Positions 3,136 through 21,272 of a stretch of DNA of 24,202 nucleotides are shown piece after piece; the stretch's first letter is position 1; the number at the start of each line of letters is the position of its first letter. The notes under the pieces are model-generated. The model saw only the letters and a program-made list of their open reading frames with translations. It ran no database searches and was not told where the DNA came from. The DNA is from a virus: IMG/VR virus record IMGVR_UViG_3300027791_000133, positions 1-24,202 of that record. One strand, given 5' to 3'. Both the position numbers and the translations under genes were made by a program.

Positions 3136-3435
3136 ATGAATGATCATTATGAAAAATACAAAGATACCATCAAGAAGGTTTCACGAAGAAATTATCAGAA
3201 GCGAGTATTTCTTCTAAACGAATTTCTCACAGAAAAATCATGTGTTCACTGTGGTGAGGCAGAACATGTCTGTCTCAAATTTTGGCCTCATGATGCAGAG
3301 ATACGCAAAGTATCCAAGAGAGTTGGAACAAGTGATGCTAGTCGCAAAGAAGTCTTCCATTTGATCGATCAATCTGTTATTCTATGTTACAACTGCTACA
3401 TCAAAAAACATCATGACTTAATCGAATTTATTTAG
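3136..3435 (+). CDS. Small HNH-like zinc protein, possibly degenerate homing-type endonuclease
   Basis: This 99-residue protein is the only convincing plus-strand gene. It has two Cys pairs, CVHCGE (about residues 37-42) and CYNC (about 85-88), spaced as in small HNH endonucleases that bind a structural zinc. The usual catalytic His in a DH-type motif is represented by LKFWPHD, and the NCH position reads NCYIKKH, so the active site is altered and nuclease activity is doubtful. The N-terminus is basic (KKVSRRNYQKR). I chose ATG at 3136; an in-frame GTG at 3112 is possible, and neither has a good ribosome site. The gene stops 4 bases before the gp17 stop, converging with it. It looks like an insertion between gp17 and gp18, as mobile HNH genes often are. 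Confidence 0.7.
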   Translation: MNDHYEKYKDTIKKVSRRNYQKRVFLLNEFLTEKSCVHCGEAEHVCLKFWPHDAEIRKVSKRVGTSDASRKEVFHLIDQSVILCYNCYIKKHHDLIEFI

Positions 3436-3439
3436 GATA

Positions 3440-5083
3440 TTACCAACTTCCAGAACTGTCTCTTACAAAGGGCGACCAACGGGTTCCATACTCATCTACC
3501 ATTTCTCCAATATTCTCATCTTCAAGTCCATTTACTATGAAACCAAAGGGTGCCATATCCTGTTCTAAAGCGTCTTGTTGTTCAGACATCATTGTTCTAC
3601 GGATATCATTATTAGTTAATTCTTTGAAATACTGTTGGTCTGTGACCCATGCAAAGATAAAGAGACATGCAACAAGGTCATCATTACACCCATCATCAGC
3701 CTCAAAAGATGAACCCTTAACAATAAAGGTTGACAACTCATTAATACATTCGTAGTCCTCAATAATAAGTTTATTGTCCTCAACCAACTGTTTAAGATTT
3801 GAACAACCAATCTTCTTTGTTGCCTTTGTGGTTCTTACCCCCAACTGCGCTTTACCACCGCTGAACCCCCCACCAAGGACTTGTCCCGCCCGCCCACGCA
3901 TACTAGCCATAATAAGGTTGTCGTACTCCAAGTCAAACTGCATAGCGTTAGCAACCTGTTCTCCTATGTCATTGACCTCAATCAACACAAATGCTTGATT
4001 GTATGCCCGTGCAGTGTCATAGATTTTAGATGGGAATATGAGAGGTTTGATCTCATTGTCACGGTATTTTGCAACTACCCGATACGGTATTTCAGTCACA
4101 TCCACAACCACAAATGCTGAGTAATCGTTTGATGTTCCCCGTGAAACATCAGCAGTGAGAAGGTATGTGTGATCTGCTTGTGGTGGAATATGAACGTCTA
4201 GACCGCCACTAGACTGTTTCGGTGATCGATATGTTAACTGTTTAAGTTTATGGGGTGCAATCAGTGTATCAATAGAACCAAGGAACTCGCATTCAAACTC
4301 TGTGTTAAACTGAGCTTGAGAGGTGTTCTTGATAGTCTGTTCCTTCCATGCTTCATCACGACCCGGAACTTCACTCCAATGCACCTCAATCGGAATGTAT
4401 TCGTTTCTCTGTTCTTCTGCATCCACCCATAGTTTATAGAACATATTCATACCATGTGGGGTGGAAACGATCATTACCTTCGTAGTTTTACCCGAACTTA
4501 TTGTAGGGTAGACTGAACTGAAAAATTGTTCTGCAACATTACTTGGGACATATGCAAACTCATCAAGGAAAATAATGTTGTAAGACCCACCACGAACAGC
4601 AGAAGCACTAGTAGAACTTGCCAATATTTTTGAACCATTTTCTAACTCCAAAGAACCCTTGTTCCAACTCATTACTCCTTGTTGTAACCACTTTGGAAGA
4701 TGTTCATATGCAAGTTGTAAACGTGATAGTAAATCACGAGCAGTTGCCGCCTTATTCGCAAGGATAGCAATATTGACATTTGGGTTGAACAGTGCGTAAT
4801 GTAGAAGATATGAAACCATGACGGTAGACTTACCTGATTGTCTAGGTAGTTTACAGATGGTGAAACGATTATTGTGAAACGTACCTACCATTTCTTTCTG
4901 AAAGCCATACATCTTAAATGGTATAAGACCCTCATCAAGAGAAATAATCTTAACGTAATTCTCTATAAAATATTGCGGGTCTTCCATACACAAAGAATAC
5001 TCTTTAAGTTCTTTCTTTGTCCAAGACTGTTGAACATTAGCCTTCTTCAGATTTGGATTTCCAAGGTAGGTTACATCAGCCAT
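3440..5083 (-). CDS. 17: Terminase large subunit gp17 (packaging ATPase-nuclease)
   Basis: This 547-residue motor protein pumps DNA into the prohead and cuts the concatemer. The ATPase half shows Walker A LPRQSGKST (residues 79-87), Walker B IIFLDE (170-175) and the coupling motif MIVSTPHG (204-211). The nuclease half shows LLTADVSRG with the metal-binding Asp at 312, VLIEVND in the middle, and an Asp-rich DDGCNDDLVA segment near the C-terminus. It is shorter than T4 gp17 (610 residues) but all catalytic elements are present. Its ATG overlaps the end of the upstream nuclease gene by 8 bases, suggesting translational coupling. It ends the gp13-to-gp17 run. Confidence 0.97.
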   Translation of the reverse strand: MADVTYLGNPNLKKANVQQSWTKKELKEYSLCMEDPQYFIENYVKIISLDEGLIPFKMYGFQKEMVGTFHNNRFTICKLPRQSGKSTVMVSYLLHYALFNPNVNIAILANKAATARDLLSRLQLAYEHLPKWLQQGVMSWNKGSLELENGSKILASSTSASAVRGGSYNIIFLDEFAYVPSNVAEQFFSSVYPTISSGKTTKVMIVSTPHGMNMFYKLWVDAEEQRNEYIPIEVHWSEVPGRDEAWKEQTIKNTSQAQFNTEFECEFLGSIDTLIAPHKLKQLTYRSPKQSSGGLDVHIPPQADHTYLLTADVSRGTSNDYSAFVVVDVTEIPYRVVAKYRDNEIKPLIFPSKIYDTARAYNQAFVLIEVNDIGEQVANAMQFDLEYDNLIMASMRGRAGQVLGGGFSGGKAQLGVRTTKATKKIGCSNLKQLVEDNKLIIEDYECINELSTFIVKGSSFEADDGCNDDLVACLFIFAWVTDQQYFKELTNNDIRRTMMSEQQDALEQDMAPFGFIVNGLEDENIGEMVDEYGTRWSPFVRDSSGSW

Positions 5084-10754: not shown

Positions 10755-11999
10755 TTAAGTCATAGCATCTAAGTTAATCCAATTTTCATCACAGGACACT
10801 ACTTGATTAAGTAATGCGTCTGGTATTGGATTCATTATTTTTTCGAAGTCTCCACGATTATCCATGAGTTCCCCATAAGTGAAGTTATTAAACGATGCGT
10901 CCACCATAGAGGGTACTTTGCCGGTTTCTTTTTTTTCTTTAAGTTTTTCTGGGGTGTTAACTTCTATATCATCTGAAAACCTAGTTGGCCCAGACGATTC
11001 TTTTAACTTATGATCCCGATAATCAGCATCACCAGTAAAATTATATATCACATCCTTCATAACATACTTATAAGATTCTTTTGTATCTTTTATTTTAAGA
11101 TCATGATTAACCATAGACCATATTTGGAAATCTGTTGAATCATAGAAATTATAAACAGACGCAAGTTTTTCAGCGGTTATGTTTGAATTTAAACTGGTTA
11201 TTCTCATATTAAGGGTCTGCCATTTGAGAGTAAAATTTACCCACCAGTAAAAATCAAAAGCGGTTTTAATTTCGAATGGCGCTTTATCTAAGAATGATTG
11301 AATGTTATCTCGTATGTGATAACGCACACTTTGTTTTTTATAATTACCCCTTACCTGATTTTTATTATCTCTTTTATAAAACAGTGACAGTTGATCAAAA
11401 ATGTTAACCCATGGCATGTTTTTAACTTTGAAGTTATTAATAACGACGCTACAAGAAAAAAGTAAATCGCCGGGATTACCAGTTACTAATATTTCATTCG
11501 GGCTCTGTTCATACCTATGAATATGTTGATCAAGAATTTTATATTTTAATTTTCCTTTGATATGATTTTCAAAAAACCACGGATATTCTTTCAAAGAACG
11601 AGGTTCAAATAATACCGTAATTTGTTCTGGTAATGCTACTTGCATAAGGGTTGTAAGTACCGCAGTAGAATCTATACCACCTGACCACATAACAGATATT
11701 GGTTGACCAAGATCAACTATTTCTTGGGCACGTTCAAAGCAGATATCATTAAATGATTTTGTGAATGTCGGGGGTATTTCTGGTATAGGTGAAAGAATAT
11801 GATATTTGAATCTATTATGAAAAGTTTCAGTTCGATCTACTGCTGTGCAACTTCCACAAAATAACATATCAGACAATAAATCACATATAGTTAAATAACA
11901 AGATTTTTCATCACCCCTAAAGGGGAAGTTTCGATCAGACGGATGAAATCGCAATGCTGCATTTTGATCACAAAAAATAATTTTATCATCTAAAATCAT
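10755..11999 (-). CDS. Asparagine-synthase-like PP-loop enzyme, copy A
   Basis: This 414-residue protein has a canonical PP-loop, MWSGGIDSTAVL (residues 104-115), preceded by FNDICFERAQEIV. This is the layout of the asparagine-synthase C-terminal domain, which adenylates a carboxylate (or other acyl/keto group) for attack by an amine. There is no N-terminal glutaminase domain: residue 2 is not Cys and the first 80 residues do not resemble class II amidotransferases. It is paralogous to the enzyme at 13280-14656. Both share a VTGxPGD motif, PFEI with an FDF-WW segment, a WS-x3-NHDLK block and GxADYRD near the C-terminus. The gene starts 15 bases after the TRAP gene with no obvious ribosome site. 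The substrate is unknown; sugar or amino-acid amidation is a guess. Confidence 0.75.
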   Translation of the reverse strand: MILDDKIIFCDQNAALRFHPSDRNFPFRGDEKSCYLTICDLLSDMLFCGSCTAVDRTETFHNRFKYHILSPIPEIPPTFTKSFNDICFERAQEIVDLGQPISVMWSGGIDSTAVLTTLMQVALPEQITVLFEPRSLKEYPWFFENHIKGKLKYKILDQHIHRYEQSPNEILVTGNPGDLLFSCSVVINNFKVKNMPWVNIFDQLSLFYKRDNKNQVRGNYKKQSVRYHIRDNIQSFLDKAPFEIKTAFDFYWWVNFTLKWQTLNMRITSLNSNITAEKLASVYNFYDSTDFQIWSMVNHDLKIKDTKESYKYVMKDVIYNFTGDADYRDHKLKESSGPTRFSDDIEVNTPEKLKEKKETGKVPSMVDASFNNFTYGELMDNRGDFEKIMNPIPDALLNQVVSCDENWINLDAMT

Positions 12000-12014: not shown

Positions 12015-12959
12015 TTAATTAACTTTTTTTATTGATTCCAATAATCCCGGTGTGAACATATCATCATATTTTTCATACATATACTCAGTTGCCTCTTTGA
12101 AACGTAGACGCTCCTCATCAGACATGGTGACTACCTTAATGGTATCTTCCTCACATTTGGACTTAACAATGTCAATGTCTTCTACAGACCAGACCCGTTC
12201 TGCCCTAGCTGCATCAAAAGATGCATCTTCAATTTCGGTTTGCAACTCAAGATCAAGAGTGTTCCAGAAATCCTTAGCAACAAGAATTGAAGTAAGGAAC
12301 AATGAATGTTCTGCATCGTTGATTGTGTCCATGAACTCATTCTGTTTCAAACCATAGAAACGAGGATAAGTAGACTCACCACCAACAATATCATTACTCT
12401 TTATGCCTTCGTTGATCTGCTCAAGTTCCATAGGAACAGGGATAGCACCAACTGCACTAAGAGTTTCTTCTGCGATAGGAGATTTGTTGCAACGCAACTT
12501 CTGACCTTTGAAGTCTTCAATTGTATTCAGTTCTACGTTAGCAGGGATCATTCGAAACCCACCAGAATAGGTAAACGCAAGACCTTGAACATTACTGTTC
12601 TTATTAAGACCAGCAAGGAGAGACTTACCGATATCACCTTCAAGCACTTCTTGTGCGTGATCGTGATCTTTAAAGATGAACGGCATGTCTAATGCCCACA
12701 TGTCTTTGGCGTGAGTGCGTCCAAGCGTAGAAGTATACATCTGGGACATTTCTATCTCACCATCTTCCATCAACTGAAGAAGATCGTGTTTCGTGATCTT
12801 TTCACCCGGCTTGTATTTCTCAGCATATTCTGAAAGAGTTAAGATTTCCAAGTTAATAGCGCCTGGCATCTTCTCTTCCATAGTGGCTTTAAAATGTTTT
12901 GCTGCCCTAAGAAATAATTCAATAGGTTCATGAGCTAGTACCCAACGGATGGTTTTCAT
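12015..12959 (-). CDS. TRAP-type (DctP) solute-binding protein without signal peptide
   Basis: This 314-residue protein has the full DctP/TRAP periplasmic binding-protein pattern. It has WVLAHEP at the N-terminus, FRMIPANVELNTIEDFKGQK then LRCNKSP with the family's ligand-binding Arg, LSAVGAIPVPMELEQI, and a GGESTYPRFYGLKQNEF block. The usual late helices around FWNTLDLELQTEI and the final MYEKYDDMF are also present. Such proteins normally bind organic acids in the periplasm and hand them to DctQM membrane partners. Here the mature domain begins at residue 1 (MKTIRWVLAHEP), so there is no export signal and it should stay in the cytoplasm or virion. No transporter subunits are in the window. 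An exact late promoter (12983-12990) and GGGAG ribosome site precede it. Confidence 0.85.
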   Translation of the reverse strand: MKTIRWVLAHEPIELFLRAAKHFKATMEEKMPGAINLEILTLSEYAEKYKPGEKITKHDLLQLMEDGEIEMSQMYTSTLGRTHAKDMWALDMPFIFKDHDHAQEVLEGDIGKSLLAGLNKNSNVQGLAFTYSGGFRMIPANVELNTIEDFKGQKLRCNKSPIAEETLSAVGAIPVPMELEQINEGIKSNDIVGGESTYPRFYGLKQNEFMDTINDAEHSLFLTSILVAKDFWNTLDLELQTEIEDASFDAARAERVWSVEDIDIVKSKCEEDTIKVVTMSDEERLRFKEATEYMYEKYDDMFTPGLLESIKKVN

Positions 12960-12982
12960 GTGAGTCTCCCTTTATCTATATC

Positions 12983-12990
12983 TATTTATA
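12983..12990 (-). promoter_or_regulatory. T4-type late promoter for the TRAP binding-protein gene
   Basis: Minus strand reads TATAAATA exactly and overlaps the stop codon of the DUF2061 gene (its TAA is the third to fifth base of the octamer). The predicted leader is 18 bases with GGGAG before the ATG at 12959. Confidence 0.85.
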
Positions 12991-13237
12991 ATATAATTTT
13001 ATCTGTATCAGAAGAAACTTTGTTCCAATCAAATCGATTCCAGAGTCTTTCATGGCAAATGTATAAAATACTATTAATGACTAGTGCCATTAAACCCACT
13101 ATTAACCCCTTCATCCAATCTCCTGTGACGATCCACCCAATAAGACTGTTGGTAATCATCATCCAACTTCTCCAAGTAACTGCCTTAGCAATTGTTCTTG
13201 GTAATTTTTCGAACCAAACTGGTTTTGTAAAACTCAT
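12986..13237 (-). CDS. Small DUF2061-family membrane protein
   Basis: This 83-residue protein matches the DUF2061 pattern: a basic amphipathic start (KLPRTIAKAVTWRSW), then a hydrophobic segment (about residues 24-37, ITNSLIGWIVTG). A second longer hydrophobic segment (about 43-62, GLIVGLMALVINSILYI) follows, then the hallmark CHERLWNRFDW. It should span the inner membrane twice. Function of the family is not known to me. It has its own late promoter (13265-13272) and a leader with AAAGGCG. It lies directly before the TRAP binding-protein gene, whose promoter overlaps its stop codon. It is not a recognisable TRAP DctQ subunit. Confidence 0.88.
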   Translation of the reverse strand: MSFTKPVWFEKLPRTIAKAVTWRSWMMITNSLIGWIVTGDWMKGLIVGLMALVINSILYICHERLWNRFDWNKVSSDTDKIIL

Positions 13238-13264: not shown

Positions 13265-13272
13265 TATTTATA
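13265..13272 (-). promoter_or_regulatory. T4-type late promoter for the DUF2061 gene
   Basis: Minus strand reads TATAAATA exactly in the 42-base gap after the modification operon. The predicted leader is 22 bases with AAAGGCG. Confidence 0.85.
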
Positions 13273-13279
13273 CGTCATA

Positions 13280-14656
13280 TTATTGTCGATCAAGTTGAGT
13301 TTTCCACTCTTCCCAAACAGGTCTATTATATATATCCCATTTATCATACAAGTTAATCGATCCATCATAGTCACGATTATTCATAACCCAACTAGAATCG
13401 CTATGTTGTGGCCAACTGATGTTGTCATTTTTTTTATGGTATGAACCATCAGTCATTACTAAATGATTAAAAAACGGTGACTTGCCCACACTACCCCCCA
13501 TATTCCACACCTTGTTTATACTTTTCTCTTTGGTTTTATTATCTCTGTAATCTGCATTACCATCATATTCATATATAAAATCTTTAGATGGCCACTTGTA
13601 TGACTTCCAAGTGCCTTTGTGTTTTAGATCGTGATTATGAATACTCCACTTCTGTATCTCTTGTGAATTATAAAAACCAATCATATTTTGCCATTCAGAA
13701 GGATTTGGCATCTGTGCGAACATACGAGTTTCTATCCACTGCCATTTTGTTGCAAATGCTATCCACCATGTAAAGTCAAACGGATTTCGTATTTCGAATG
13801 GACATTTTGCGTTAAATCGTTCACAGAACTCTATAAATCGTGGACGATGAAAGTCCAAAGCTTTAGCAGGATCACATGGTGGTTCACCCTTGGGTTGGTG
13901 AGCAGTCATATATTTACCATTATTAGGAAACATATATTGAATATCTGGCCAATTAAATATATCTGTCCAGTGTTTATCCAAATCCTCAATATGATTTTGT
14001 ACAACAAATGTTCCATAAAACGGATCACCGGGCTCACCAGTTACATTAATAGTACCATCAGAAAAATTAGAAAACTTAAAAAAATCTTTTGATAGACTAG
14101 ATTCAAATTTGATATCATCTATCTTTTTTAGCATTGACCAGAAATGTGGATTTTCTTCAATTGAATATCCATTGTAGTAAATAATAAGTTCATGTTCTGG
14201 TTTCCTAGTTCGTAAGAAAGCAATCAACGCTGTTGTAGAATCAATGCCACCAGACCACCATAAACGTACTGGTTTATCCATTGCCCAGATTTCTTCTGCT
14301 CTTTCAAGGAAAAGTTCTTCTATACTGCGATTCCATCCAGATTCTACTTTAGGTATTGGGTCCACATGGTAATTATATTGATTGAACTCGTTACCATCTG
14401 TCCTATCCATAGCAATAGGACATTGTACTAATTGTCCCAAACTATGCAAATAATTGTTAAATTGTTCACCAACACGGCCGGGTGCAGCATCATAACTATG
14501 CATACCGGGTTGCCAAATTTTCCACCATCCCCGTGCAGCCTTGTGTGATGTATTTTCAAACCAACCAATATCTAGAGGATTATGGTGTTTCAACCACAAA
14601 TGTTCACTGTCACTATGACGTGTACAAACAACCTTCAAATCATTTAAAATTTTCAT
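13280..14656 (-). CDS. Asparagine-synthase-like PP-loop enzyme, copy B
   Basis: This 458-residue protein carries the PP-loop WWSGGIDSTTAL (residues 133-144), preceded by IEELFLERAEEIW, as in asparagine synthase C-terminal domains. There is no glutaminase half. The C-terminal third is rich in Trp and shares with copy A the PFEI, FDF-WW, WSIHNHDLK and GNADYRD motifs. I start at ATG 14656 (MKILNDLKVVCTRH), which overlaps the preceding glycosyltransferase by 17 bases; an upstream in-frame start at 14704 would add 16 residues lying within that gene and is less likely. It is the last gene of the modification operon. It presumably activates and amidates or conjugates a small substrate; the substrate is unknown. 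Confidence 0.8.
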   Translation of the reverse strand: MKILNDLKVVCTRHSDSEHLWLKHHNPLDIGWFENTSHKAARGWWKIWQPGMHSYDAAPGRVGEQFNNYLHSLGQLVQCPIAMDRTDGNEFNQYNYHVDPIPKVESGWNRSIEELFLERAEEIWAMDKPVRLWWSGGIDSTTALIAFLRTRKPEHELIIYYNGYSIEENPHFWSMLKKIDDIKFESSLSKDFFKFSNFSDGTINVTGEPGDPFYGTFVVQNHIEDLDKHWTDIFNWPDIQYMFPNNGKYMTAHQPKGEPPCDPAKALDFHRPRFIEFCERFNAKCPFEIRNPFDFTWWIAFATKWQWIETRMFAQMPNPSEWQNMIGFYNSQEIQKWSIHNHDLKHKGTWKSYKWPSKDFIYEYDGNADYRDNKTKEKSINKVWNMGGSVGKSPFFNHLVMTDGSYHKKNDNISWPQHSDSSWVMNNRDYDGSINLYDKWDIYNRPVWEEWKTQLDRQ

Positions 14657-15338
14657 AATCTTCCCATTCGTGCGGTTTGTTTCTATGGTTTGTAAAATGC
14701 ACAAACTTTATATCGGGGTGAAATTCTCCCCCCATATACATCCAATCGTTACCAGTTGCCTTCTCATATCTCTGAGTCATCTTGTACTGCCAAGTTTCAC
14801 TATCTCTAAAGTCTATAACCTTATTATCAGCAACCCATCTTGCAAACCATTCATTGGGTAACGTAACGAGTTCTAGTCTTTCCCTCACACTATCTTCTAC
14901 AAAATACTGTTCACCATTAACAGGTCCAGTGGTCTGACCATTCTTAATATAGAACTGTTGCCAATGATGAATATCTTTCATAAATTTATCATAGATATAT
15001 TTACATTCCTTTGGATAGTACTTGAAGAATCCACCATTGATCTTATAAGTATTAGAATCATTTCTCCACCATCCCGGCATTGCTAAAAACTGACCCGGTT
15101 TTATGGGATAGTCAAAGACTTTTTTATAATCACCCACAAGTAAAATATCAATATCTATTACACAGATTGGTTCATCAATATCCATCTGCATACCTAACAT
15201 TTTATTCCACTGAAGAGTAACCCTTGGATCATATGGTTCATTTATCCAAATAATATTATACTCAGAAAGTTTTTCTTCTAAATAAACCTCATATTCTGGA
15301 CCATACTTATCACCAATACGAACTGCTATGATATCCAT
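14640..15338 (-). CDS. Putative GT-A glycosyltransferase (small, DxD)
   Basis: This 232-residue protein looks like a nucleotide-sugar glycosyltransferase of GT-A fold. It begins with a beta strand (MDIIAVRIGDKYGPEYEVYL), has LQWNKMLGMQMD leading to ICVIDIDILLVGDY with the metal-binding DID at 62-64, then PGWWRNDSNTYKINGGFF, a GT8-like acceptor-side block. A C-terminal His-containing segment, KFVHFTNHRNKPHEWEDY, resembles the late metal-ligand region of such enzymes. No membrane segment is present. It overlaps the preceding gene by 13 bases and the following PP-loop gene by 17, so it is part of one operon. Donor and acceptor are unknown. Confidence 0.78.
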   Translation of the reverse strand: MDIIAVRIGDKYGPEYEVYLEEKLSEYNIIWINEPYDPRVTLQWNKMLGMQMDIDEPICVIDIDILLVGDYKKVFDYPIKPGQFLAMPGWWRNDSNTYKINGGFFKYYPKECKYIYDKFMKDIHHWQQFYIKNGQTTGPVNGEQYFVEDSVRERLELVTLPNEWFARWVADNKVIDFRDSETWQYKMTQRYEKATGNDWMYMGGEFHPDIKFVHFTNHRNKPHEWEDYENFK

Positions 15339-19233: not shown

Positions 19234-19951
19234 TATATATCTCCTGTGCTATAATCTTGTGACCTTCAGCATTGGGATGACTATCTTCATCTGAAATCCT
19301 TAACTGTTTTCTTTCTGGATCAACTTTATCTAATATATCTATTACGGTATATCCACCAATCTGTTTCAGTATTGGCCAACCTATAAACTGATCTGGATTT
19401 ATTTCATCAAAGATTTTAGAATTTATCATTGGGGCGGGGAGCGCTTTCTTCCAATGCTCCCCAATATCGGAAACCGGCACTGGCCCTTGTATCATAAGAT
19501 AAGGAATATCCTTTAATAACATTTGTGCTATTAAGAAGTGTCTAAGGGATTTCATAGTTACATCATATGTATTATTATACTGTAATATACTATTCCTAGA
19601 TTTTGAATCTATAGGATACTTTTCAGTTTCAGAATTGTCTCTATGTGGATGAAAGGAGTACCATCCATTTGCCGGGTCTTGAAAATCCTGTCTCATCCAT
19701 TCACTCCACATCAAAACTACAAGACCAATATTTTTTTCTGATAAGACCGTATCAATAAGCTTTGATGAAATCTGTTGGTTACCTGCTCCGCACCTTCCAA
19801 GGTTAACACATTCCATATCAAGTTTATCAGCAAGATGTTGTGGCCAACGGGGGAAATTATGATCAAAATCTGGAGACATAGGATTGTTCAGATAATGTTC
19901 TGTAAAACTGCATCCAATGGCAATCAGTTTTTTTCTAGAAGATTTTAACAT
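19208..19951 (-). CDS. SGNH/GDSL-type hydrolase
   Basis: This 247-residue protein resembles SGNH hydrolases, which remove or transfer acyl groups on carbohydrates and lipids. LIAIGCSFTE (residues 9-18) is block I with the nucleophile Ser15. NLGRCGAGNQQI is the block II glycine region. LVVLMWSEWMRQDF stands where GxND is usual, so block III is atypical. DEDSHPNAEGHKIIAQEIY near the C-terminus is block V with the catalytic Asp and His. No signal peptide is present, so it acts in the cytoplasm. It overlaps the carbamoyltransferase by 17 bases. With glycosyltransferases nearby, a role in O-acyl editing of a glycan is a reasonable inference. Confidence 0.82.
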   Translation of the reverse strand: MLKSSRKKLIAIGCSFTEHYLNNPMSPDFDHNFPRWPQHLADKLDMECVNLGRCGAGNQQISSKLIDTVLSEKNIGLVVLMWSEWMRQDFQDPANGWYSFHPHRDNSETEKYPIDSKSRNSILQYNNTYDVTMKSLRHFLIAQMLLKDIPYLMIQGPVPVSDIGEHWKKALPAPMINSKIFDEINPDQFIGWPILKQIGGYTVIDILDKVDPERKQLRISDEDSHPNAEGHKIIAQEIYNAYKKIYI

Positions 19952-21272
19952 TATATAATTTTGAAAACTCCACTGCGTTATCCCAAGTATCTACCATTGG
20001 TTTACCCTTTATATTTAGGGAGGTGTTCAGAAGCATCGGACAACCTGTTTCATCATACCACTCTTCCAGTATTGAACGAATTACAGAACCGCAATCTCTC
20101 TTGACCACCTGTACTCTTGCCGTGCCATCTACATGAGTCACTGATGTATAATCATGTTTTGCCTTTGCGACAAACTGCATATACTCGTTCATTGGTCCTT
20201 CGAAGTATTCGTCTGCATACTCTTCTAGAATGGCTGGTGCAAAGGGACGGAACTTCTGTCTCTTTTTGATATCATTCACCGTATCTTTAATGTCATATCG
20301 TGGATCACCAAGTAATGAACGATTACCTAATGCACGAGGTCCAAACTCTGCACGGCCATTTGCAACACCACACACCTTATTTTCTAATAGTTCTTTCACT
20401 ACTTCCTTTGGTTTTATATTATTTAAAATGAGAGTTCCAAGATAGGGATGCTTCCACTTCAACTTCTTTTTAAGAACCAACGCAGCTGCGCCTAATGCAC
20501 TACCAGCATCGCCGGGGGATGGCATAATCCATATATTTTTCCCTTTGATCTTTGAGTTAGCAACACAATTCAGCGCACATCCACCCATGATGACTAAGTT
20601 TTCATGGGGACATAACTCTACCAGTTTAAGTAGTTCCCTCTCGTAGAGGTCTTGTATGGACGATGCGAGGTCTTCTGGACGTGCTTCTGGGTAAATGTTA
20701 CCAACACCTCGGTGGTTGTTTTCCCACAGGTGGTCTTCTAAATTATATTTGGATTCACCAAATGCTGACATACCCATTGTGATGTATTCATCCTCGTTGG
20801 GTTTCAAGCCTATACGTTGTGTAATTGCTGAATATAAAAGACCAAGAGAGTGAGGATATTTCCACGATGTTCTCTTTTTCATCTTATTATCTTTACAATC
20901 CCATATAGACATAGTGTCCCACTCACCGATTGCATCAATGACTAAGACGTTGCACTCATTAAAGGGGGATGTGTAGTAACCAGCAGCAGCATGAGATTCA
21001 TGATGACCAAAACATGTATCATATCCTATACGAGTCTTCTGCCACTTCTGTCCAGCATATAATCGCCGCAAGTTCTTACGAAAGGGTTTCTCGTAATATG
21101 CAATTACATCTGGTTTATTTAATTTAGATTTAGGTAACTGTGCAGGGTGTGCCCACTTGTCACCCTTCTTTTGACTATGACGCTCACTATGTGAAGCAAA
21201 ATGTATTCGGTCATTCCTCAGTAAACAAATACCCGCATCATGGAACCCCTCTGAAACTCCAAGTATATTCAT
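19935..21272 (-). CDS. NodU/CmcH-type O-carbamoyltransferase
   Basis: This 445-residue enzyme would transfer a carbamoyl group from carbamoyl phosphate via carbamoyl-adenylate to a hydroxyl, typically of a sugar. The N-terminal TsaD-like domain has MNILGVSEGFHDAGICLLRN, GHHESHAAAGYY (His90, 91 and 94), MGGCALNCVANSKI (229-242) and PSPGDAGSALGAA (251-263). The C-terminal domain has GRAEFGPRALGNRSLLGDPR (306-325), FRPFAPAILEEY and LLNTSLNIKGKP. All known landmarks are present though the protein is shorter than NodU (roughly 550-600). GGAG nine to twelve bases before ATG is the ribosome site. It is the first gene of the overlapping modification operon. Confidence 0.93.
   Translation of the reverse strand: MNILGVSEGFHDAGICLLRNDRIHFASHSERHSQKKGDKWAHPAQLPKSKLNKPDVIAYYEKPFRKNLRRLYAGQKWQKTRIGYDTCFGHHESHAAAGYYTSPFNECNVLVIDAIGEWDTMSIWDCKDNKMKKRTSWKYPHSLGLLYSAITQRIGLKPNEDEYITMGMSAFGESKYNLEDHLWENNHRGVGNIYPEARPEDLASSIQDLYERELLKLVELCPHENLVIMGGCALNCVANSKIKGKNIWIMPSPGDAGSALGAAALVLKKKLKWKHPYLGTLILNNIKPKEVVKELLENKVCGVANGRAEFGPRALGNRSLLGDPRYDIKDTVNDIKKRQKFRPFAPAILEEYADEYFEGPMNEYMQFVAKAKHDYTSVTHVDGTARVQVVKRDCGSVIRSILEEWYDETGCPMLLNTSLNIKGKPMVDTWDNAVEFSKLYNVKIF

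Follow-up and report, generated by a model that had tools for sequence, protein, structure and literature searches.

The 24,202-nucleotide stretch of viral DNA analysed here, referred to as the window, encodes a DctP-family solute-binding protein (SBP) that has kept the ligand pocket of its family, has dropped the export signal and lies beside a putative ATP-dependent enzyme of the PP-loop type. It belongs to a large, selected and phage-centred clade with these same properties. The fold and the pocket are known from TRAP transporters; the inferred location, the partners and the architecture are new. A leaderless binding protein, predicted to be made late and placed next to a putative ATP-using enzyme, suggests an uncharacterised phage handling of small organic acids inside the host, and the reading that we favour, at a little under an even chance, is that the phage DctP binds a carboxylate in the cytosol, in the service of the PP-loop enzyme encoded next to it. 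If true, this would be a new use for a well-known fold and a new kind of metabolic module carried by marine T4-like phages and by large phages. Ligand sequestration or sensing, unconventional export, catalytic reuse and structural use of the fold all weigh less than this reading.

Table 1. Features of the DctP cassette and its surroundings in the window, with strand and line of evidence
Feature	Position	Strand	Evidence
Leaderless DctP-family solute-binding protein, 314 aa	12015..12959	-	profile, PDB, AlphaFold, VIA, alignment
DctP ligand-site columns, numbered from M1	R136, R156, E195, S196, H218		alignment
In-frame TAA stop, five codons (15 nt) upstream of the DctP ATG	12972..12974	-	
TATAAATA, predicted late promoter of the DctP gene, 24 nt before the ATG	12983..12990	-	motif
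DUF2061 predicted membrane protein, 83 aa, conserved upstream neighbour	12986..13237	-	PF09834, 4e-14
TATAAATA, predicted late promoter of the DUF2061 gene	13265..13272	-	motif
PP-loop (SGGIDST) ATP-pyrophosphatase-like protein, downstream neighbour of DctP	10755..11999	-	
Second PP-loop (SGGIDST) protein, same family; listed from TTG, true start probably near 14656	13280..14704	-	
Junction of gp17 (terminase) and HNH-like gene; DctM and TAXI SBP pair of sister phages absent here	3435..3440	.	

The window protein is established as a member of the DctP family (PF03480). The profile covers residues 17-298 with E=3.3e-45 (155 bits, cut-off 23.4), and of the NCBIfam DctP models NF037995 scores above its cut-off and TIGR00787 below. 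At E<=0.001 the protein matches 77 distinct PDB sequences, the best TRAP SBP with E=8.5e-24. An AlphaFold2 model based on a 36-sequence alignment (A2) has a pLDDT of 94.7 and a pTM of 0.90 and contains a long helix at residues 237-271. The solved structures nearest to this model are TRAP SBPs, with Foldseek E-values down to 2e-27, and VIA gives Z of 33-36 and rmsd of 2.1-3.0 over ~300 residues for them, in a ranking that reorders the Foldseek hits and from which a missing fold is not thereby excluded. The sequence-only reading had ascribed to this gene the full DctP fold pattern with its ligand arginine, and profile and structure prediction bear this out, with R156 retained. The phage protein thus has in common with the DctP-type TRAP SBPs (SiaP, PDB entries 4xfe and 4n8y) the family, the whole fold and the carboxylate-binding arginine. 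Unlike the solved TRAP SBPs, to which it is ~15-24% identical, it has no signal peptide and is sometimes split into two chains, and it differs from SiaP-type proteins in its predicted late phage promoter, its PP-loop and DUF2061 neighbours and, in the window, the lack of an adjacent DctQM.

The protein begins at the mature domain, as that reading had also claimed. In the model the beta1 strand starts at residue 2, so that nothing lies N-terminal to the mature domain, and the in-frame TAA upstream of the ATG (Table 1) excludes an N-terminal extension. In 113/113 distinct viral DctP 5' regions an ATG is found no more than 14 codons from the conserved [RK]WV[LI]AH[ED]P motif, and 83 of the regions have an in-frame stop codon no further than 20 codons upstream; a hydrophobic extension is possible in just two, both of which also have a nearer ATG. 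A misplaced start or a lost N-terminus of the window DctP is ruled out by the conserved stops and the placement of the ATG. The TctC-type SBPs of the same loci provide an internal control: all 65 have a hydrophobic leader, compared with 2 of 64 DctP N-termini, and these two belong to bacterial proteins in which strand beta1 accounts for the hydrophobic run. A signal-peptide extension was sought in relatives and is present solely in a bacterial sister branch, with none in the phage lineage, and for this lineage the leaderless claim therefore survives. Solute-binding proteins are defined by their function outside the cytoplasm; as the defining export signal is absent, functional membership of the window DctP in a TRAP transporter is not established.

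Loss of the leader was not accompanied by loss of the pocket. All 36 aligned family members keep R136 and R156, whose spacing with S196 (20 and 40) is that of R127, R147 and N187 in SiaP. R156 aligns with the arginine of the K-[LIV]-R motif in 4xfe and 4n8y and occupies the alignment column of SiaP Arg-147; this arginine coordinates the carboxylate group of the ligand, and 96.8% of DctP SBPs have it (PMC4646407). At 72 conserved positions, which include H10, E11, S72, Q73, Y75, T76, R136, R156, E195, S196, R200 and H218, two secreted sister proteins (L238 and L242) have the same residue, and because these sisters bear signal peptides the pocket has outlived the leader. A further 14 conserved positions, including R18, K57 and P199, differ in both. 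From alignment to known TRAP SBPs, the shared positions are predicted to line the pocket. Among relatives dN/dS is 0.05-0.11, the lowest ratios depending on saturated dS; a degenerate gene is ruled out by these values. Together, the conserved pocket and the low dN/dS place the binding site under selection in a protein without an export signal.

Pattern-plus-tblastn scans of IMG/VR, the database whose record of the window spans 24,202 bases in all, yielded at least 356 viral loci with DctP relatives and a second branch with 76 loci that partly overlap these, on contigs of up to 357 kb. An oddity of a single assembly is ruled out by this number of relatives. The window itself derives from a T4-like phage, its terminase being 69% identical to that of Methylophilales phage Melnitz and 68% to that of Pelagibacter phage HTVC008M, and the T4 capsid protein Gp23 is encoded on 13 of the 21 large contigs that bear DctP relatives. 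The 50,697 annotated phage records contain no member of the leaderless family, only distant DctP matches at <27% identity, and none of the papers covered by a literature search describes a DctP without a leader or the PP-loop cassette.

Leaderless members are also found on seven bacterial MAG contigs. Two of these (L093 and L098), from Bacteriovoracaceae, look chromosomal: the DctP gene is flanked by flagellin-like genes, and its neighbours include genes for an MFS-like transporter and for a short conserved protein resembling a 2OG hydroxylase by eye. Signal-peptide-bearing proteins with the same motif occur in five genomes of the order to which these two contigs belong, and the closest such relatives found are orphan DctPs of Bdellovibrionota (L417, L419, L423/L238, L424/L242 and L427). 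They have the [RK]WVLAHEP motif and the pocket residues of the phage proteins, to which L238 and L242 are ~50% identical, but they are bacterial and carry clear signal peptides. In the tree the secreted L238 and L242 cluster with the leaderless family (support 83/65), and with support of 61/38 the tree is compatible with a single as well as a repeated loss of the leader. Two genomes (G032 and G037) each have one leaderless and one secreted DctP copy. Inspection by eye of two 15-kb Bdellovibrionota stretches found no PP-loop, TctC, DUF2061 or DctQM partner.

The exact T4 late promoter proposed from the sequence stands, on placement and conservation and with the bare motif count set aside. All five minus-strand copies of TATAAATA in the window sit 20-42 nt upstream of ORF starts, those of the tail sheath and DUF2061 genes included, while the total of six copies is a mild excess only over the chance mean of 2.9. 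Within the 60 nt upstream of DctP in T4-like relatives, TATAAATA is found in 24 of 37 cases and [N]ATAAATA in 36 of 37, against random-window backgrounds of 0.7% and 1.8%. The window DctP gene thus has a promoter of the T4 late type, from which late expression would be expected. The earlier proposal of a late-made, non-periplasmic, ligand-binding version is well supported by the conservation of leaderless starts, late promoter and pocket and by purifying selection.

The DctP gene is syntenic with PP-loop genes and with a gene for either DUF2061 or TctC; the cassette with PP-loop and DUF2061 genes had escaped the sequence-only reading. Across 48 non-redundant loci (DctP <80% identity), proteins with the PP-loop motif SGGxDS account for 40/186 DctP neighbours at distance 1-2 versus 7/286 at distance 5 or more (odds ratio 10.9, Fisher p=2.6e-11), and a PP-loop gene lies within four genes of DctP in 38 loci. 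The second partner is the small membrane protein DUF2061 or a secreted TctC-type SBP; of the 32 loci with at least one of the two, only 1 has both (p=0.006). In 8 of the 48 loci, some of which are contig ends, none of the three kinds of neighbour (PP-loop, TctC and DUF2061) is found nearby. In the reciprocal test DctP is adjacent in 59/80 DUF2061 viral loci and in 9/80 PP-loop loci, and the latter count indicates that the PP-loop family is the broader one, with DctP as an occasional partner. The family of the two window PP-loop proteins has at least 487 viral loci, and most copies are without DctP. Since the family is far commoner in phages than DctP, the enzyme does not need DctP.

The SGGxDS motif is present in 98% of the PP-loop cluster PPa, and S-G-G-x-D-S is invariant in the alignment of the first PP-loop family (A4). 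Against the PDB this family gives weak matches to diverse PP-loop enzymes, GMP synthase and LarE among them (E 0.0002-0.002), and the second family (A5) gives no meaningful match. Scores for Asn_synthase (PF00733) fall short of assignment, with a best E of 0.0015 among members and 12.8 bits for the window protein against a cut-off of 21. The 50,697 annotated phage records hold no match for the second of the two window PP-loop proteins in Table 1, and the neighbours of PP-loop genes without DctP gave no clue to the substrate of the enzyme.

Split versions of DctP occur in the second branch, where an N-lobe (~156 aa) and a C-lobe (~162 aa) are separate ORFs in 24 loci. The junction falls at the lobe boundary (...LTDEDQN-stop / MKIRTNRNP...) with a frame offset that varies among phages, and the occurrence of the split in different samples and with both frame shifts speaks against assembly error. 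Loci recorded as split are L186, L210-L227, L230, L169, L173, L180, L184 and L193; in three loci (L214, L215 and L230) two C-lobe genes follow one N-lobe. The UniProt entries A0A6J7WI33 and A0A6J7WKL0, DctP/TeaA halves from uncultured Caudovirales known from automatic annotation only, belong to the same family and likewise encode the lobes separately, as two chains in place of the one in the window. The split DctP would be a natural case of a two-chain SBP. One further locus (L072:5989-7905) has tandem full-length leaderless DctP paralogs, of the IELF and LSLF types, beside a PP-loop gene.

We propose a mechanism in which a DctP-type SBP that has lost its signal peptide would work in the host cytoplasm, made late in infection from its own T4-type late promoter. 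The retained double-arginine pocket would close on a small carboxylate, and the protein would concentrate, deliver or hold the substrate or the product of the adjacent PP-loop ATP-dependent enzyme, to which it would be coupled physically or metabolically. DUF2061 or TctC may act as the membrane-side or periplasmic partner. The ligand would probably cross the membrane via transporter parts of host or phage; in relatives the candidate suppliers are DctM with a TAXI SBP, or TctC, either alone or together with TctA.

A binding protein that lacks a leader and has a conserved pocket would also suit a cytoplasmic ligand sponge or sensor of a host metabolite or signal, which would act in anti-defence or metabolic control and would not feed the PP-loop enzyme. 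The several copies in some genomes, including the tandem paralogs and extra C-lobes, and the prevalence of PP-loop genes without DctP point in the same direction. We nevertheless regard this alternative as unlikely, as the promoter is of the late and not the early type, DctP is strongly coupled in position to PP-loop genes, and the cassette proteins tested against PADLOC gave one marginal match only (a PP-loop protein, E=0.0097).

The sequence-only reading had further noted the lack of a DctQ or DctM partner, and in the 24-kb window neither is found. This is only locally true for DctM, as close relatives carry it: seven sister phages (L003, L005, L009, L015, L016, L018 and L023), whose DctP is 83-95% identical to that of the window, have a DctM-family gene between the terminase and the HNH-like gene. 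That of L005 matches PF06808 with E=2e-56 (sister region L005:10199-12461), and six of the seven also have a TAXI/NMT1 SBP (PF16868) that starts with a hydrophobic leader. A search of nine related contigs, all of which may be fragments, found no DctQ. Of the 21 large phage relatives, seven have TctA and one has DctM. TctA-family genes accompany the leaderless DctP at L177:2558-3856 and on the contigs of L074, L155, L172, L174, L225 and L228; immediately upstream of DctP, L177 and L070/L071 have a TctA-like gene together with a small protein that bears a leader. The DctM and TAXI genes of the sisters and the TctA genes of other relatives indicate that these phages invest in organic-acid uptake via leader-bearing SBPs. 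Phage-borne components of organic-acid transporters have been described before, namely tctA in SUP05 viruses (PMC4164917) and a TRAP solute receptor-like ORF in the Ralstonia phages RP12 and RP31 (PMC5468394); the passages on these genes describe neither a leaderless binding protein nor a PP-loop cassette.

Such transporter genes would also fit a DctP that leaves the cytoplasm, by a non-Sec export route or through lysis, and binds solute for a transporter of the phage or the host: DctM and a secreted TAXI SBP lie next door in the sister phages, TctA and TctC occur in other relatives, and DUF2061 is a predicted membrane protein. The lack of DctQ in the nine related contigs argues against this possibility, which we consider quite improbable, as do the leaders on the phages' other SBPs, TctC and TAXI alike, which indicate that export is available to DctP and is not used. 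As for the cytosolic reading, its extension to a TRAP binding protein turned into the intracellular ligand-handling subunit of a PP-loop enzyme, two-chain in some lineages, which together with phage TTT/TRAP transporter parts would form a new uptake-and-modify module for organic acids, is in our estimate possible but on balance somewhat doubtful.

The SBP fold could instead have become an enzyme whose substrate is the bound carboxylate and which forms a short pathway together with the PP-loop protein and the products of associated hydroxylase or desaturase genes. Fatty acid desaturase, 2OG-Fe(II) oxygenase and AMP-binding ligase genes neighbour DctP in several loci, and further neighbouring ORFs resemble SDR and BKACE enzymes by eye. 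The conserved pocket residues are, however, identical in the secreted orphan binding proteins, and no leaderless-specific, catalytic-looking cluster is found among the 14 differing positions, so that we hold this to be decidedly unlikely.

DUF2061, DctP and the PP-loop gene move as one unit, the intact DUF2061-DctP-PPa order being found at differing genome positions. In the lineage of the window the cassette is among neck and terminase genes, and in another T4-like group it lies, judged by eye, in a block with UvsX-, DnaB helicase- and MazG-like proteins. Of the new roles suggested from the sequence, intracellular ligand binding, be it sequestration, sensing or delivery, fits these data, whereas a structural or virion protein built on the SBP fold fits poorly and is highly improbable, since the late promoter and the placement among neck, terminase and tail genes in the window lineage that would favour it are set against a conserved ligand pocket, a mobile cassette that other T4-like relatives have in a replication-gene block, bacterial contigs with DctP and no obvious phage genes nearby, and the split of DctP into two ORFs in some phages.

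At four loci (L087, L092, L075 and L080) metabolic islands surround the cassette, with genes for an AMP-binding ligase, SDR-like and BKACE-like proteins, a fatty acid desaturase, an AdoMet decarboxylase and several PP-loop proteins; parts of these islands recur on a 504-kb bacterial MAG contig as well as on phage contigs. In the window, a Nol/NodU-like carbamoyltransferase gene (phrog_1601; 19935-21272, minus strand) lies upstream of the cassette beside GDSL-like, glycosyltransferase-like and Asp/Arg-hydroxylase genes, and this neighbourhood may be an island for modification of the virion or of a surface.
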